The notes beneath the pieces were generated by a model. That model did not search any database, was not told the DNA's origin, and saw only the letters and a list, made by a program, of their open reading frames with translations. From NCBI RefSeq assembly GCF_000247645.1, contig NZ_AHWA01000004.1, positions 372,001 to 436,000 of the forward strand: 64,000 bases of DNA. Reading direction: 5' to 3'. How positions within the stretch are numbered: the stretch's first letter is position 1; each line of letters begins with the position of its first letter. This stretch comes from Salinibacterium sp. PAMC 21357 (GTDB taxonomy: Bacteria > Actinomycetota > Actinomycetes > Actinomycetales > Microbacteriaceae). The position numbers and the translations under genes were made by a program. Shown in pieces: positions 27,697 through 60,555 of the stretch.

Positions 27697-28755
27697 CTAG
27701 CCGACGCTTACCCCGAATAGTAGCCCGAGGAGGTAAGTCGCGGCAGCGGCGCCATAACCGATGGCGAGTTGCCGCAGCGCCCGCTTCAGTGGTGAGGCAC
27801 CAGAGAGCAGACCCACGATGGCTCCCGTAATCAGTAGGGCAACGCCCACGAGGGCTGACGCAATGAACACCGCAGTGAGGCCTTCAGCACCAAACAGGTA
27901 AGGCAGCACGGGAATCACTGCGCCAGAGGCGAAGAACATGAAACTTGAGGCGGATGCTCCGACCGCTGAGCCGATGGGGTTATGGGCAATGGTGGCGGCC
28001 TGTGGTTGCGCGTCGCGCCCCGACAACACTTCGGCGGCTTGTAGCTCGGCATCTTCGCTGCTCATTCCGCGAGCGCGGTAGACGAGGGCCAATTCATTTT
28101 CGTTGACGTCAAGGTGAGTAACCGAGTCGGTCGCGATAGGGCCGTGCGCTGCAGCATTCTCAAGTTCAAGCTGGGAGCGCACAGACACGTATTCGCCGGC
28201 AGCCATCGAGAGGGCACCCGCGAGGAGTCCGGCAACCCCAGAAAGCAAGACAACGGCGTTGGGCAGGCCTGCTGCGCTCATTCCGAGCACGAGGGCAAGG
28301 TTGGAGACGAGCCCATCGTTGGCTCCGAATACGGCGGCGCGGAACGTTCCCGAGAGTCGTTGACGGCCGCGCGTAGCGAGGGCGCGCACCACTTCCTCAT
28401 GCACCGCTTCGTCGGCGGCCATCGTGTCGGTCGCGTCGGCGTCATCCAGATACGGCGAACGAGACTCAGCCCGTTGGGCGAGGGCGAGCACAAAGACGGA
28501 ACCAAAGCGGCGGGCCAGGAAGCCGAGCAGCCGGGTGCGGGGGTCGGTGGCTAACGGGCGGCCAGCGTGCTCGCCGAGCAGTGTTAGCCAGTGATCCTCG
28601 TGGCGCTTCTCTGCCGTGGCGAGAGCCAAAAGGATCTCGCGCTCCTCGCCTGTGCGGCGGGAGGCCAGATCACGATAGACGGCGGCTTCAGCACGTTCGG
28701 CTGCGAGATAGCGTCGCCACCGTCGAATCTCACGGGCATCGGGGCTTGTCGTCAC
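27697..28755 (-). CDS. VIT1/CCC1-family transporter with ferritin-like domain
   Basis: This 352-aa protein has an N-terminal rubrerythrin-like helical domain (RRYLAAERAEAAVYRDLASR, AEKRHEDHWLTLLGEH) with metal-binding Glu/His. The VIT1 membrane domain follows (GANDGLVSNLALVLGMSAAG, SMAAGEYVSVRSQ) with four or five hydrophobic segments. The family moves Fe(II) or Mn(II). GTG 28755 overlaps the preceding gene's stop (GTGA); GTG 28776 is possible. The pairing with an aldose epimerase seems positional rather than functional. Confidence 0.86.
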   Translation of the reverse strand: MTTSPDAREIRRWRRYLAAERAEAAVYRDLASRRTGEEREILLALATAEKRHEDHWLTLLGEHAGRPLATDPRTRLLGFLARRFGSVFVLALAQRAESRSPYLDDADATDTMAADEAVHEEVVRALATRGRQRLSGTFRAAVFGANDGLVSNLALVLGMSAAGLPNAVVLLSGVAGLLAGALSMAAGEYVSVRSQLELENAAAHGPIATDSVTHLDVNENELALVYRARGMSSEDAELQAAEVLSGRDAQPQAATIAHNPIGSAVGASASSFMFFASGAVIPVLPYLFGAEGLTAVFIASALVGVALLITGAIVGLLSGASPLKRALRQLAIGYGAAAATYLLGLLFGVSVG

Positions 28756-29671
28756 GCGGAGAACTCGACTCCCCACGATGCCGAGAATTCGATACCCGGC
28801 TCGAGCCAGAGCAGGCCGCGGCCGGTGTTGAACGCGTTGGGTGCTGCCGTCATCGGTTCGATGGCGACAACCTGACCGATGCCGGTGAGGGTCGGAAAGT
28901 TGCGGGGCGTGAACAGCTGAACGAAGTCGAACTTGTCATCCATAGTGACGCGAATTTCGCGACCGTCTGACGCGGTGAGGCGGGCAGCAACACCGTCGAC
29001 AACCTCAATACCGCCGAACGCCGTGTCGAGATCGAGCTCTCCGACGAGGCGACCACCACTGAGATCGAACCCGGTGCCGGAAACAGCGACCTCATTGGTC
29101 GGGATGTTGCGCTCATTCGATTCGAAGCGGGTGGCGGCGGTCATCGTGAGAGTCAGCTCCGCAATGGGAGTGTCGCCGATCTTGAAGAAAGGGTGCGCTC
29201 CGAGCGCGTAGGGGGCTGCGGCATCCGAAAGATTGGTGGCGGTGTGGCTGACGCGCAGGCCGCCCTCGACGAGTTCGTAGCGCACCGTGGTGTGCAGGTG
29301 AAACGGGTAGCCATGCTGCGGGAAAACCGTCGCGCCGAGCGTGACCGAGCTTTCGGTCCGTTCGATGAGCGAGTAGCCCGTGTTGCGAGCAAACCGTGGA
29401 TGGCGTTGTTGCGATCGCGTTCGGTGATGTCGAGGTGTTGCGGTTCACCTTCGAGCATCCAGATGCCGTCTTCGATGCGGTTGGGCCACGGCACCAACAC
29501 GATGCCGTCGGCAAAGGGTGGCATCGCCGATTCGGCGTACGATTCGACTAGATCAACGCCACCAATGCTGAATTCCCGCAATGAAGCAGCGAGCTCGGTG
29601 ATCGTTGCCCGAGCCTCGCCCTGTTCGGTGGCTCGAGTAATGATGTACTGGGTTCCGGTAGGCACGCTCAC
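28752..29671 (-). pseudogene. Aldose 1-epimerase (GalM-like), frameshifted
   Basis: The protein is split over two frames. The N-terminal part (from GTG 29671 or 29665) reads YIITRATEQGEARATITEL and VLVPWPNRIEDGIW, then ERDRNNAIHGLLA. The C-terminal part continues as RNTGYSLIERTESSVTLG, YALGAHPFFKIGD with the catalytic-type His, and FDFVQLFTPRNFP. The frame changes at about 29383-29390, where one missing C would restore HGLLRNTGY or HGLLANTGY. The restored length is about 306 aa, normal for the family. Aldose epimerases interconvert hexose anomers. The gene is divergent from the galactokinase-like gene, 43 nt apart. Codon use stays normal on both sides of the break, which favours a sequencing undercall over decay. 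Confidence 0.8.
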
Positions 29672-53260: not shown

Positions 53261-54525
53261 CTAACCGTTGAGAATGCTGTCGATCTTTGCGTCGAGATCC
53301 TTCGCTAGCGAAGTCACGTCGCCTCCCTGAGCCACCTGAACGAAGAAGTCGGTCAGCGCGCCCGATGCTTCAACGTCAGCCCACTTGGGGGATGCCGGGG
53401 TCAGCCGTGCAGCACCGGCAGCTTCAGAGATTGCCACAGCAACCTCATCCGTTCCGAGCGTGTCGGCAAGCGACAACTTGGCCGGCACTAGGCCGTTAGC
53501 ACCGTAGATCGACTGGAACTCGTCGCTCAGGATGATCGCAAGTGCCTTCTTGGCGAGTTCGGGTTGAGCGGACTTTGCCGAGACCGCAATGTTTGATCCA
53601 CCAGCGAACACCTGGGCTGCGCCACCGTCTTTACCGGGCATGGCGTAGACGCCGAGGTTAGCTTCTTCATCGGGGCAACCGGGAGTTTCGGCGTCGAGCG
53701 GAGCCAGAATCGACCACTTCACCCAGCTGGGGGCAGACAGTTGCAGGGTTGTTCCCTCGCAGTACCCGACCTGAGGGTTGGTTTCGTTGGCATCCTTCGG
53801 AGCCCGCGAGGCATCCGTCATCACCTCTTGCACTTGCTCAATGCCGGCAATCGATTCAGCGGACGAGAACTGCGACTTCCATTCGCCGCCCTCGAAGGTG
53901 GCAACTTCGCCACCGTTTTCCCAAATGAAAGGAAGCGCGTTGTACCAGTCCTGTCCTGGCCACCAGATTCCGGATGCGCCCGGGTTGGCATCCGCGAGCG
54001 CGACGCCATTACTGATGTACTCGTCGAGGGTAGTCGGAACGCTCAGCCCTGCCGCAGCGAGGGCATCTTTCTTGTAGAAGACCAGTCGTGAGCCCGAATA
54101 AAGCGGCGCGGCATAGAACTTATCGTCGTACGATCCTGCCTCCACGAATCCGGGAAGAAGGTCGTCGCCACCCAGAGCGTCGTAGTCAGCAGTGAGGTCG
54201 AGGAATGCGCCGCCGACGTGAACGCTGCTGCTTGGGTGTTGCCGACCTCAACGAGGTCGGGGCTGTCGCTGCCGGAGAGGTTGGTGGTGAGAAGGTCAAC
54301 GAGACCACCCCACGCCTGCTCTTCGATGGTGATTGTCGATCCGGGGTTTTCTGACTCGAAAGTGTCGATCAGGTAGTCACGGGCCTCTTGCGGAGTATCC
54401 GTTCCGACCAGCCACACGCGCAGGTCGGCGGTGGCGTCTTCGCCGCTGCCGCTGTCTCCTGCTGAACAACTTGCCAGAGCTAGCGCTGCCACGACGCCAA
54501 GCGCCGCGATGCTGAGTTTCCTCAC
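53261..54525 (-). pseudogene. Amino-sugar ABC transporter substrate-binding lipoprotein, frameshifted
   Basis: The first part, from GTG 54525, reads as signal KLSIAALGVVAALALASC, then DLRVWLVGTDTPQEARDYLI and SPDLVEVGNTQAAAFTSA. The second part continues AFLDLTADYDALGGDDLLPG, then FYAAPLYSGSRLVFYKKDAL and further binding-protein sequence to DLDAKIDSILNG. One G missing at about 54208-54214 (GGG to GG) causes the break; restored, it reads TSAGAFLDLTADY. The full length is about 421 aa, normal for the family. It should bind a GlcNAc-type sugar, judging by the downstream kinase and NagB. The ROK repressor gene is 67 nt upstream. Confidence 0.82.
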
Positions 54526-55890: not shown

Positions 55891-56340
55891 ATGCGCAGCC
55901 TCACCGACAACAAGACCGCCGTCGCCATCTTTGCCGGAGTAACCCTCGTTGGCGCGCTCTCGGCCTGCTCCTCCCCCGCCACCGGCACCGACGCTCCCGT
56001 CACTGACCGCGCCGACGATGCTGCGACCGCAACCGGCGGCGACTACGCCGACGGCAGCTACACCGAAACCGGTGACTACATCTCGCCCAACGGTGCCGAG
56101 CAAGTAGAAGTCACCCTCACCCTCGCGAGCAACGTCATTACCGACGTCACCGTTGTAGGGTTCGGCGAGAGCCCCAACTCCAAGCAGTTCCAAGGCGAAT
56201 TCATCGACGGAATCGCTGCTGAAGTCGTCGGCAAAAACATCGACGAGCTCTCCGTCGATAAAGTAGCTGGCTCGTCGCTCACCAGCGGCGGCTTCAATAA
56301 AGCCGTCGCTGTCATTAAGGCAGACGCTCTCGCCAACTAA
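55891..56340 (+). CDS. FMN-binding domain lipoprotein
   Basis: This 149-aa extracytoplasmic protein has signal AIFAGVTLVGALSAC, an acidic Thr/Ala linker, and an FMN_bind domain (GSYTETGDYISPNGAEQVEV through VAGSSLTSGGFNKAVAVI). The usual flavinylation motif Ser-Gly-Ala-Thr appears here as Ala-Gly-Ser-Ser (about residues 131-134), so FMN would be attached to Ser or not at all. It is followed by the ApbE flavin transferase and an NqrB/RnfD-like reductase gene, so it should be the exported flavin carrier. AGGAG precedes ATG 55891. Confidence 0.85.
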   Translation: MRSLTDNKTAVAIFAGVTLVGALSACSSPATGTDAPVTDRADDAATATGGDYADGSYTETGDYISPNGAEQVEVTLTLASNVITDVTVVGFGESPNSKQFQGEFIDGIAAEVVGKNIDELSVDKVAGSSLTSGGFNKAVAVIKADALAN

Positions 56341-56341
56341 C

Positions 56342-57198
56342 ACGTTCGACGCTATAGGTGCGCCCTGGCAAATCGACACGGCACTGCCCCTCAGTGCCGA
56401 CGCTGACGCTGCCGTCGCCGAACGAATCGAACAGTTCGACCGAACATACTCGCGCTTTCGCGAAGACTCCCTCGTCACCGCAATAGCGCGCACCCCCGGC
56501 AGCTACCCTTTTCCCGCGGATGCTCCGCCACTGTTCGAGCTATACCGCCGGCTCTACGACGCCACCGAGGGAGCAGTAAGCCCACTCGTCGGCCGCGCCC
56601 TCGAAGAACTCGGCTACGACCGCACCTACTCGCTGCGTCCGAGCAACACCCGCACCCGCGTGCCCGAATGGCACGAAGCAATCAGCTGGAACGGCACTGA
56701 ACTCACCACCCTCACCCCCGCCGTGCTCGACGTGGGAGCCGCCGGCAAGGGCTACCTCGTGGACCTTGTGACCGAAGTGCTCGCCGCCCACGGAGTCACC
56801 ACCACAACAGTGGATGCGAGCGGAGATCTGCTGCACCGGGGCGAAACGCCGCTGCGGGTTGCGTTGGAACATCCACTCGACACCACCAAAGCCATCGGCG
56901 TCGTCTCGGTGCACAACCAGGCGATTTGCGCCTCAGCGCCTAACCGCCGGGCGTGGGCCGGGTTGCACCACATTCTCGATGCGCGCACCGGACTGCCCAC
57001 CGACCGCATTATTGCGACGTGGCAATCGCCGCGACAGCGCTTGAGGCTGATGGGCTTGCTACCGCACTCTTCTTTGCCGAGCCAGCGACGCTGGCTCTCG
57101 AATTCAGCTTCCAGTGGGTGCGGATGTTTTCGACGGGACGCGTCGACTATTCGCCCGACCTCAATGGGGAACTATTTCTAGAAAGGTCAAGCGCATGA
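56342..57198 (+). pseudogene. apbE: FAD:protein FMN transferase (ApbE), frameshifted and lacking a standard start
   Basis: The homology begins FDAIGAPWQIDTALPLS, right after the FMN-binding gene, then EQFDRTYSRFREDS, LYRRLYDATEGAVSPLVGRA, VLDVGAAGKGYLVDLV (the conserved ApbE Gly/Lys/Asp loop) and HHILDARTGLPTDRIIATW. At about 57021 one missing G shifts the frame; AIAATALEADGLATALFFAE to SPDLNGELF continues in the next one, ending at 57198. In the coding frame, no ATG/GTG/TTG occurs after the TAG at 56264 and before the first homologous residues. The start is therefore non-standard (ACG 56342, CTG 56309 or ATA 56297) or miscalled. ApbE attaches FMN to the neighbour's Ser/Thr outside the membrane. 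Confidence 0.8.
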
Positions 57199-58703
57199 AG
57201 CGATGGCTAGACCGCAGACTCGGCGCAATCGCGATGCACAAGCTCGTACTCTTGTGGCTGCTCGTAATCGCCGTTGCCGCAATCGCACTGTCGTTCTTCG
57301 ATCTCATCTCCCCTGACCCGATGGCGCTACTCGCCAGCCTGCCCGTCGCCGTCGTGTTCAGTTATGGTGCCAGCTGGCTCGGCGCTCGTATCGTGCGTCA
57401 GCGCGCCCACCGTGAGTCTTCGCTCATAACCGGGTTACTGGTGTTCTTCATCATGGCCCCTGGTCTTGAGCTGGAGGCGTTGTTGGGCATTGCTCTGGCG
57501 TCAACAATCGCTGCGGCATCCAAATTTCTCATCGCATTCCGCGGGCGCCATATTTTCAACCCTGCTGCTCTCGGGGCGTACGTCTTCATCTTTGCTCCGC
57601 TCGGTTTTCCGAGTTGGTGGGTGGGAACTCCCCTGCTTCAGCCGCTGATTGTGATTGCCGGGTTGCTAATTTTGTATCGCACCCAGCGCCTCGATCTCGG
57701 TCTGATCTTCGTTGTCGTCGCCGCCAGCATCCGGATCGTTCTCACCATTACCGGCGGCGGCACTCTCGTCGAGGCACTGAGTTTCACCTTCGCGTCGTCG
57801 CCACTGATTTTCTTTGTCGGGTTCATGCTGAGCGAACCCCTCACCCTGCCGCCACGGCGCTGGCAACGGTTGAGTCTTGCCGTTCTCGTTGCGCTGCTGT
57901 TCGCGATCCCTTTCTCAATCGGACCTGTCTACAGCGACCCGCTTCTTGCCCTGCTCATCGGCAACCTCGTGGCGTTCGTCTTCACTCAACGCCGCACCAT
58001 CCGAATGACGCGCGTCGAAACAACTGAGATCGCCCCCGGAACGTGGCAAATCACGTTTGCCCCGCACCGCCCCATCATGTTCCGGGCTGGCCAGTACATT
58101 GAGCTTTCGCTGCCCCACAGTTCTCCAGATTTTCGCGGGGTGCGCCGCTACTTCACCATTTCCTCGGCTCCGGATGCCGGAGCTACCCTCTCGGTGACCT
58201 TCACCGCTCCAGAAAACTCGAGCAGTTTCAAGGCTGCGCTTCTCGCCCTCCCGCGGGGTTCGCAGGTCAACGCCACCGGAATTTGGGGCGACTTCGTCTT
58301 GCCCCGCAACACCGCCACACCGCTCCTCCTGGTCGCCGGGGGAATTGGAGTAACGCCCTTCGCTAGCCAAATCGCGCACGCTCATCGCCAAAGTGAGGAT
58401 CGCGACATCGTTGTCGTCTACGCCTCATCCCAGATCGGACCGTTGCCGTTCGCCGCCCTCCTCACTGAGGCGGGCGTGCGCGTCGTTGTGTTCGGCCCGC
58501 AGTCGAGCATGCCGCTGCCTACCGGCTGGGAGCATGGCGGCGACGGTCGAGTCACCGGGGCTGCGCTCTCGGGTCACGTGCCCGACCTAGCCGACCGCCA
58601 CGTTTATCTTTCCGGCCCGCCCGGGCTCGTAAACGATCTCAAATCAACCCTGCGCGAGAACGGTGCTCGCCGCATCCGCAGCGATTACTTTTCCGGCTAC
58701 TAA
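57195..58703 (+). CDS. NqrB/RnfD-like membrane protein fused to ferredoxin-reductase-like domain
   Basis: In this 502-aa protein the N-terminal half (to about residue 265) has some eight transmembrane segments like NqrB/RnfD (ESSLITGLLVFFIMAPGLEL, GRHIFNPAALGAYVFIFAPL with the conserved Asn-Pro-Ala, and FMLSEPLTLPPRRW). The C-terminal half is an FNR-type flavin/NAD module (FRAGQYIELSLPHS, RRYFTISSAPDAG, LLLVAGGIGVTPFASQ, HVYLSGPPGLVNDLK). It could pass electrons from NAD(P)H across the membrane to the FMN-lipoprotein. ATG 57195 overlaps the apbE stop (ATGA). Confidence 0.88.
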   Translation: MKRWLDRRLGAIAMHKLVLLWLLVIAVAAIALSFFDLISPDPMALLASLPVAVVFSYGASWLGARIVRQRAHRESSLITGLLVFFIMAPGLELEALLGIALASTIAAASKFLIAFRGRHIFNPAALGAYVFIFAPLGFPSWWVGTPLLQPLIVIAGLLILYRTQRLDLGLIFVVVAASIRIVLTITGGGTLVEALSFTFASSPLIFFVGFMLSEPLTLPPRRWQRLSLAVLVALLFAIPFSIGPVYSDPLLALLIGNLVAFVFTQRRTIRMTRVETTEIAPGTWQITFAPHRPIMFRAGQYIELSLPHSSPDFRGVRRYFTISSAPDAGATLSVTFTAPENSSSFKAALLALPRGSQVNATGIWGDFVLPRNTATPLLLVAGGIGVTPFASQIAHAHRQSEDRDIVVVYASSQIGPLPFAALLTEAGVRVVVFGPQSSMPLPTGWEHGGDGRVTGAALSGHVPDLADRHVYLSGPPGLVNDLKSTLRENGARRIRSDYFSGY

Positions 58704-58713
58704 GGCGCGGCGA

Positions 58714-60555
58714 TTAGGCCCGAACGCGACGCTTGAGGTTCAGCGCCCGCAGCGCGTTGAGAATCGTGACGAGGTCAACGACTTCTTGCAGGCCGGCGCC
58801 CACTACCGCCGGAAGTGCCCCCGTCATGGCGAACAGCATGAGGCCCACACTGATGGCGATGCCAATCCAGATGCTCTGCAGCGCTATCTGCACGGTGCGC
58901 TGGCTGACTTGCACGGCCGACACGACCCGATAGAGGTCATCGACCAAAATTACGACGTCGGCCGATTCGCTCGCTGCGGTCGATCCCTTGGCACCCATCG
59001 CGATGCCGACGTCAGCGGCGCCGAGCACGGGCGCATCGTTCACGCCGTCGCCAACCATCACCACCGGGTGCGGACTCGTCGCGTGTACGAGACGTACCTT
59101 GTCTTCGGGCAGGCACTCCGCGTGCACCTCGCTGATGCGCAATTCGTCAGCAACCTTGCGCGCGGTTTCTTCGACATCGCCCGTGAGCATCAGGGTGTTC
59201 TGGATGCCCAACGCCTTCAGTTCGGTCAGAGTGCGCGCCGCTTCGGCCCGCACAGCATCGCGCAGCACAATCGCGCCGGCGTAGCGGTCATCCACCGAGA
59301 CGTACACCGCAGCCTCGCCACTAGCGAGCTCAAGGCGAGTGAGTGCTGGCGCCTTCTGCGCCACGAACGCCGGTTTGCCGACGGTCACGAGTTGAGTACC
59401 GATCCGTGCTTGCACGCCGTGCGTGGCAACTTCGCGGGCATCCTGCACTTCGGGCAACACGAGCTCACGTTGCTTCGCTGCGTCAACGAGGGATGCCGCA
59501 AGTACGTGTGAGGAGTACTGCTCTGCCGCGGCGACCAACGCCAGCAACTCGTCTTTGCTCAACGAACCTTCGGGGCGAACGTCGACGACGACGGGGCGAC
59601 CGCTCGTGAGCGTACCCGTCTTGTCGAACACCACAGTTTTGGCACGAGCCAGCACCTCAAGCGTGCCGGCATTTTTGACGACAACGCCGTAGGTAGAGGC
59701 GCTCGACATTCCCGCCATGAACGCTACTGGGGCCGCGATAAGCAGCGGGCACGGGGTCGCGACGACGAGCACTTCGGCAAATCGCACCGGATCGCCAGAC
59801 ACCAACCAGGCAATGGCGGCGAGCGCGATCGAGACGAAAGTGAAGGGTACAGCGTAGCGATCGGCCAACCGCACGATGGGCGCCTTGCTCCCCGCCGCTT
59901 CCGTCACCAGTTGCACAATGCGCTGGTACTGGCTGTCGGCTGCCCGCGCGTTCGCTTGCACCGTGACCGCTTCAGGCCCGTTCACCGATCCGCTCAACAG
60001 CACATCGCCGGTCACTTTTTCTACGGGCATGCTCTCACCGGTCAACGACGACTCATCCACCGCCGTTGCCGCCGATATCAGAACCGCATCGACGGGCACG
60101 ATCTCTGAGGGGCGCACGACAAGTCGATCTCCCACCGCAATCTCCGTCGCGGGAACATCGATCAGGTCACCAGCATCCGTCACCTGATGGGCCGTCTGGG
60201 GCACGCGGCTAAGCAGCGCGTTCAACTCGCGCTTTGCCCGGCCCGCCGCAAAATCTTCGAGGGCTTCACCACCCGTGAGCATCAGCACGATCACGATACT
60301 TGCCCAGTATTCTCCGACGACCACGGTCGCGATGATCGCGGTCACCGCCAACACGTCAAGCCCAAACTCGCGGCGCAGCAGCTTCCGCACCATCGAGACT
60401 GCCTCACGCGCAGCAACCGCAAGGGCATAGAGCGAAAGAAGCCACGGCCCGACGGCGGATGCTGGCGTCCAGTACAGGGCCAAACCAACCGCTCCCACAA
60501 CCACTGTCAGCGCGACAAGCGGATAGCGGCGTACTGCCGCCGCGAGAGTAGTCAT
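58714..60555 (-). CDS. Heavy-metal translocating P1B-type ATPase
   Basis: This 613-aa pump has an actuator domain with SLTGESMPVEK, membrane metal motif VVATPCPLLIAAPVAF, phosphorylation site VFDKTGTLTSGRPV, nucleotide domain SSHVLAAS (an HP-like variant) and hinge VVMVGDGVNDAPVLGAADVG. TPCP replaces the common CPC, and there is no N-terminal heavy-metal-binding domain, a layout seen in Zn/Cd/Co-type actinobacterial pumps. It is convergent with the flavin operon, 10 nt apart, with no shared regulation visible. Confidence 0.92.
   Translation of the reverse strand: MTTLAAAVRRYPLVALTVVVGAVGLALYWTPASAVGPWLLSLYALAVAAREAVSMVRKLLRREFGLDVLAVTAIIATVVVGEYWASIVIVLMLTGGEALEDFAAGRAKRELNALLSRVPQTAHQVTDAGDLIDVPATEIAVGDRLVVRPSEIVPVDAVLISAATAVDESSLTGESMPVEKVTGDVLLSGSVNGPEAVTVQANARAADSQYQRIVQLVTEAAGSKAPIVRLADRYAVPFTFVSIALAAIAWLVSGDPVRFAEVLVVATPCPLLIAAPVAFMAGMSSASTYGVVVKNAGTLEVLARAKTVVFDKTGTLTSGRPVVVDVRPEGSLSKDELLALVAAAEQYSSHVLAASLVDAAKQRELVLPEVQDAREVATHGVQARIGTQLVTVGKPAFVAQKAPALTRLELASGEAAVYVSVDDRYAGAIVLRDAVRAEAARTLTELKALGIQNTLMLTGDVEETARKVADELRISEVHAECLPEDKVRLVHATSPHPVVMVGDGVNDAPVLGAADVGIAMGAKGSTAASESADVVILVDDLYRVVSAVQVSQRTVQIALQSIWIGIAISVGLMLFAMTGALPAVVGAGLQEVVDLVTILNALRALNLKRRVRA

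Follow-up and report, generated by a model that had tools for sequence, protein, structure and literature searches.

A probable Salinibacterium member of the Nqr/Rnf-like flavinylation system with a GSS-type lipoprotein site and a frame-broken apbE

Gene clusters in which a membrane-reductase fusion is encoded beside FMN_bind and ApbE genes are described under the name 'NQR/RNF-like' in the text of Meheust et al. 2021 (PMC8238504), which places them mainly in Actinobacteria and CPR and counts 127 clusters in 127 genomes, six of them with a VIT1 iron transporter. The two-subunit complex was modelled by Huang et al. 2024, whose text also states that the covalent-FMN motif is absent from the membrane domain (PMC10979944, PMC11334425), and a one-way transfer of electrons from NAD(P)H to the outside has been proposed for this system (PMC8238504, PMC10979944). 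As to the flavin transferase and its target, the published flavinylation motif is D-x-x-[S/T]-G-A-[S/T]; serine is accepted as acceptor, with less flavinylation than threonine in the tested cases, and most ApbEs are described as secreted, with cytosolic exceptions (PMC12052999). In other systems, those of Bifidobacterium breve, mutants in an apbE and in sifE, whose product contains an FMN-binding domain, show poor growth when iron is chelated, an effect that the authors ascribe for apbE to Fe-S clusters (PMC5449479).

The locus studied here lies in a window of 64,000 nucleotides (G000:C3:372001-436000, the whole stretch of DNA that was analysed; positions are counted from its first letter), on a contig of the 3.1-Mb, six-contig genome of Salinibacterium sp. 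PAMC 21357, with a completeness of 99.8% and a contamination of 0.02. A 149-aa lipoprotein (55891..56340, plus strand) reaches 26.0 bits with PF04205 against a cut-off of 22, which places it in the FMN_bind family. It is followed on the same strand by apbE, coding for an FAD:protein FMN transferase (about 56324..57198; PF02424, 110.5 bits), whose start is uncertain and whose frame is broken near 57,02x. The stop of apbE overlaps the start of the third gene (57195-58703, plus strand), a single 502-aa protein that joins an NqrB/RnfD-like membrane domain (approximately residues 1-270; 57195..58004) to an FNR-type FAD/NAD(P)H reductase module (58005..58703; PF00175, 28.8 bits, cut-off 22). A sequence-only reading of this DNA had proposed a compact extracytosolic flavin electron-transfer operon, and the domains, the conserved gene order and the co-occurrence support it. 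The FMN-binding lipoprotein at the start of the operon is borne out by its PF04205 score and the 502-aa fusion by a hydrophobic N-terminus, the PF00175 match and homology to RnfD detected with hhalign. The order of the three consecutive genes stands too, but ApbE is not an intact frame. Besides this one-base frameshift, the sequence-only reading had overlooked the lack of a standard start codon, a non-canonical GSS site in the lipoprotein and a second ApbE/FMN_bind/MsrQ-like system in the genome.

How does this operon compare with the described systems? As in the NQR/RNF-like clusters, an FMN_bind protein and ApbE accompany a protein that combines an NqrB/RnfD-like membrane domain with a cytosolic NAD-binding domain, and that membrane domain carries no covalent-FMN motif. 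Of the features by which the published clusters are recognised, a cluster around ApbE/FMN_bind with a lipidation site is present (the lipobox being read by eye), PF00175 lies C-terminally in the same protein, and the covalent-FMN site of NqrB/RnfD is not conserved. The published rule for the N-terminus of the fusion is PF03116, and here the locus departs from the described system, its score staying under the cut-off; an export signal is not evident in ApbE, whose frame is broken in this assembly, and the GSSL[T/A]S site differs as well, a distinction drawn against the published text alone. With Nqr/Rnf proper the operon shares a membrane domain related to RnfD and an FMN_bind domain as in NqrC/RnfG, but its membrane subunit is fused to the reductase, the covalent-FMN motif is missing and the conserved operon holds no further subunits. 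We take the operon, fusion included, to belong most likely to the Nqr/Rnf-like flavinylation system already described. The three-gene minimal system that the fusion had suggested was right in kind, but such a minimal system is already in print (PMC8238504, PMC10979944, PMC11334425) and is not new.

The relationship of the membrane domain to RnfD emerged from profile comparison. The fusion has about ten hydrophobic segments within residues 17-263 and scores 21.9 bits with PF03116 (NQR2/RnfD), under the cut-off of 27.7. This model matched 15 of 36 fusion relatives at E<=0.01, and when 296 phylum genomes were searched with it, three that hold the fusion (this genome, G106 and G026) gave no match at E<=0.001; fusion-holding G002 passed the cut-off together with its in-frame neighbours. 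Because PF03116 falls under its cut-off here, Pfam-based surveys resting on it probably undercount the system. When the membrane domain, as a profile of 41 sequences of which hhalign's filter retained 36, was aligned with RnfD-like proteins from the phylum (30 sequences), hhalign gave a probability of 91.8 over 198 columns with E 7.6e-7, a value that holds for a single comparison, and a probability of 93.3 in global mode; an earlier run with a single RnfD row had given 13.7. The alignment pairs NPAA with the NPAL of RnfD and the EPLT stretch with TDYVTSP, and the invariant motifs of the domain are RxRHxxNPxA and M-x-x-E-P-L-T. An [S/T]GAT motif is absent from the membrane domain, and at the position aligned with the FMN-carrying Thr of RnfD 32 of the 41 sequences have T, six S and three another residue. 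We rejected covalent FMN on this domain, the RnfD motif being gone and Thr/Ser only partly kept. The reductase half was more readily recognised: PF00175 matched 31 of 36 relatives at E<=0.01, and a profile of the 36 sequences matched solved FNR-type reductases over the C-terminal module (best E 5.7e-19). All 60 matches listed of the 164 obtained with this profile fell in the reductase module, and they included no solved structure related to the membrane domain. An AlphaFold model of the fusion from six close sequences had a mean pLDDT of 45 and was not usable.

The fusion is 77-82% identical in the named relatives (Salinibacterium species together with marine actinobacterium PHSC20C1), and a search at E<=0.001 matched 27/27 genus genomes, 24 at full length (counting this genome), one split over two pieces, one partially and one in the reductase part only. 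In the class, 228 of 296 genomes matched, and the matches listed were mostly to the common reductase module only; the match spans the whole fusion in 18 genomes and, interrupted by an internal stop, residues 3-402 in one more. An in-frame TAA is found in the fusion gene of L030 (G139:C16:33916-35154), from a more distant genome. The lipoprotein profile matched 39 of the same 296 class genomes at E<=0.001, and its strong matches (E below 1e-45) are exactly the 19 fusion genomes; after these, the best-scoring sites were a second copy in G148 (1.7e-27), followed by a fragment in G139 (1.7e-9). In all 42 loci, 24 from the genus and 18 from the class, apbE adjoins the fusion with the order kept, a neighbourhood far beyond chance. 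In 40 of them the 1.5-kb flank contains the lipoprotein gene as well; the remaining two have it at a greater distance upstream, which in one case amounts to about 2.7 kb from apbE. For the sequence comparisons, L004-L008 were left out as duplicates of five genus loci and only fusions of 480-540 aa were considered, so that 41 were kept; the fusion alignment has 36 rows, without the five copies L032, L034, L038, L039 and L041, and the lipoprotein alignment 34 rows, also without L030 and without L013 and L023, in which the lipoprotein lies outside the short flank. Plasmids gave no near match.

No fourth shared partner emerged when the ORFs surrounding 24 loci were clustered (that of the window, three from the five named relatives and 20 others). 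Five clusters occurred in at least 21 of the 24 loci, and these are the three operon genes and two antisense-frame clusters across the operon; the next largest one, in nine loci at scattered positions and ABC-ATPase-like by eye, and those in seven loci or fewer were rejected as shared partners. Neither an iron gene nor any other terminal partner recurred around the operon in these 24 loci. Convergent to the operon lies a P-type ATPase gene (58714-60555, minus strand; PF00122, PF00702), which also follows it in two of three named relatives inspected (L005 and L006; in L004 the position is beyond the printed range) and is no general partner.

The genome also holds a second flavinylation locus, of the MsrQ-like kind described by Meheust et al. 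2021 (PMC8238504), at L011 6652-9340 (minus strand; G000:C2 about 263,650-266,340). Like the operon, it combines ApbE and an FMN_bind protein with a membrane protein that carries a fused FNR-type module; between the two loci this reductase module is 28% identical. It differs in its ferric-reductase-type membrane domain (PF01794) and in a canonical SGAT site. A two-component pair lies beside this second locus; a pair found beside the operon in one genus is 31-38% identical to it and was judged generic.

The lipoprotein presents a lipobox-like LSAC at residues 23-26, read by eye, and Cys26 is invariant in the 34 aligned relatives. FMN_bind (PF04205) matched 30 of these 34 at E<=0.01. Where the canonical flavinylation site would be expected (56269..56286, plus strand), the window has GSSLTS, and all 34 relatives read GSSL[T/A]S instead of [S/T]GA[S/T]. 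With its flanking residues the site is D-K-V-A-G-S-S, which does not match D-x-x-[S/T]-G-A-[S/T] and deviates from the tested motif in three out of seven positions; the residue aligned with the motif's Asp is variable among the relatives. We propose Ser129 as the putative FMN acceptor. Titles and abstract openings of the literature searched contained no mention of such a GSS site, from which we make no claim of absence. Structural comparison added little: the lipoprotein profile matched one solved FMN-binding domain, weakly (8p2a, E 0.022), and an AlphaFold model from six close sequences (mean pLDDT 54) was not usable. Foldseek with this low-confidence model gave no match at E<=0.001, and in its listing the weakly matching FMN_bind-type domains (8p2a at rank 10, 8p2b_B at rank 18, 8ahx_G at rank 26) are outranked by SufU/IscU chains. 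Nothing is concluded from the AlphaFold models of either protein.

Where does translation of ApbE begin, and where does the enzyme act? An ATG, GTG or TTG is lacking within the 24 codons before the ApbE core in eight of the 24 genus loci, including that of the window, and in one of the 18 others. In the window, ACG stands at position 56324, where seven other genus loci have ATG. This alternation arises because the ApbE start overlaps the last codons of the lipoprotein gene, which read GAT or GAC in the lipoprotein frame. The simplest reading is that ApbE would start at a near-cognate codon, ACG or CTG. A lipoprotein-ApbE fusion made by frameshifting, which would export ApbE, is not our main reading, given the ordinary starts in other loci, and it is further disfavoured by L042 and L044, where ApbE follows in the same frame behind the stop of the lipoprotein. 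The genome has apbE at two places (PF02424); both genes begin at the catalytic domain with no evident hydrophobic leader, and both FMN_bind partner proteins have, by eye, hydrophobic N-termini. Since ApbE shows no evident export signal, the prediction is that flavinylation takes place in the cytosol before export, and the lipoprotein would thus probably cross the membrane after receiving its flavin. When 30 class apbE loci were checked for leaders, the core could be located in only 10, so that we give no class-wide figure for leaderless ApbE.

The broken frame of apbE deserves separate consideration. The PF02424 match covers only profile positions 4-222 of 266: the larger part of ApbE lies in frame 56201 and the remainder in frame 56200, with the switch near 57,02x, and the window thus lacks the complete catalytic domain in one open frame. 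ApbE is intact at the break position in five named relatives, every alignment with five relatives has a difference of one base there, and the frame is open to its end in 41 of 41 other loci; the gene is intact, for example, in Salinibacterium amurskyense DSM 16400. Behind the break, differences from six relatives fall mainly at third codon positions (10/5/27 by codon position against L036, 9/4/30 against L032), and the frame holds an ADGLATALF stretch, which we take to be catalytic and which aligns with solved FAD:protein FMN transferases. Over 204 kb of this genome, 8 of 134 ORFs matched with one relative were split (ORFs of at least 180 aa, antisense frames included in both directions), compared with 2 of 128 in the reverse direction, both set aside by eye. 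Three of the eight were not counted as genes, one having no Pfam match and two being antisense to other genes; the other five are Pfam-matched genes, namely ApbE, an aldose epimerase, a solute-binding protein, a cupin regulator and a Bax-inhibitor-like protein. Three of these five lie in the window, with a one-base gap at each: besides apbE, the sugar-type solute-binding protein gene (53261-54525, minus strand) and the aldose-epimerase gene (28755-29671, minus strand) show one-base frame differences to their relatives, which are probably assembly errors. The cupin/HTH regulator is split at G000:C3 about 465,580 (93,580 from the window start) and the Bax-inhibitor-like gene at about 494,300 (122,297 from the window start), the latter sharing 96-99% identity with its relative both before and after the break. 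A second screen (ORFs of at least 100 aa, two relatives) flagged 11 of 184 matched ORFs; six were dropped by eye as antisense or joined frames, and the other five are views of the window's three breaks.

Because four other Pfam-matched genes are broken within 204 kb, an indel of the assembly appears the likelier origin of the apbE break than a real loss. That the operon has truly lost its flavin transferase, with the second ApbE of the C2 locus acting in trans or the operon decaying, seems to us improbable: the assembly does show the break at its high completeness, and a second, unbroken apbE exists in the genome, but one of the other broken genes is 99% identical outside its break, apbE keeps its protein-level conservation after the break, and the lipoprotein and fusion genes are intact. 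The broken apbE of this genome should hence not be taken as a biological loss without resequencing.

We consider it likely that the operon encodes an Nqr/Rnf-like system that would carry electrons outwards. NAD(P)H would reduce FAD in the cytosolic FNR module, a non-covalent flavin in the NqrB/RnfD-like domain would pass the electrons across the membrane to FMN attached by ApbE to Ser129 of the lipoprotein tethered outside, and this FMN would hand them to an extracytosolic acceptor. We infer the cofactors, the direction of electron flow, the covalent FMN and the acceptor; that the acceptor is ferric iron or another small oxidant is a tentative guess. The reading is preferred because of the domains, the homology to RnfD, the adjacency of apbE in 42/42 loci, the co-occurrence in 19 of 296 genomes, the lost covalent-FMN motif and the outward transfer proposed in the published text. 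Against it count the PF03116 score under the cut-off, the three deviations from the tested motif together with the lower yield of serine in tested cases, and the finding that neither an iron gene nor another terminal partner recurs near the operon. Two other arrangements deserve mention. The GSS lipoprotein might be a loose flavin binder or bind none, with ApbE serving another target, as the GSSL[T/A]S sequence in place of [S/T]GA[S/T] throughout and the varying residue at the Asp position would allow; the site is nonetheless invariant, apbE is always the neighbour and other systems do accept serine at this place (PMC12052999), which makes this explanation unlikely. Equally, the relationship of the membrane domain to NqrB/RnfD, together with the delivery of electrons to quinone by Nqr (PMC10979944), is what one would expect if electrons ended on a membrane quinone, the lipoprotein being an internal relay and not the exit. 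We regard this as quite unlikely, for the remaining Nqr/Rnf subunits are not in the conserved operon and the authors of the surveys propose a one-way outward flow (PMC8238504, PMC10979944).

What the present analysis adds to the published Nqr/Rnf-like system is a lineage often missed by PF03116, with a dedicated GSS lipoprotein, a leaderless-looking ApbE and an odd start codon, and the caution attached to the broken frame. Among flavin wires from NAD(P)H to the outside, this system may be the smallest, and the evidence for it in the text of both surveys consists of sequence and models. More speculatively, and with doubt prevailing, there may be a clade in the Actinomycetes whose lipoprotein is flavinylated on the serine of GSSL[T/A]S by a leaderless cytosolic ApbE and crosses the membrane already with its FMN. 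If this were true, the clade would stand apart from most known systems, in which ApbE is itself an exported lipoprotein, and it would be undercounted because many of its members score poorly with PF03116. The members collected here allow a cheap test of how variable the ApbE site may be and of where flavinylation takes place relative to export.
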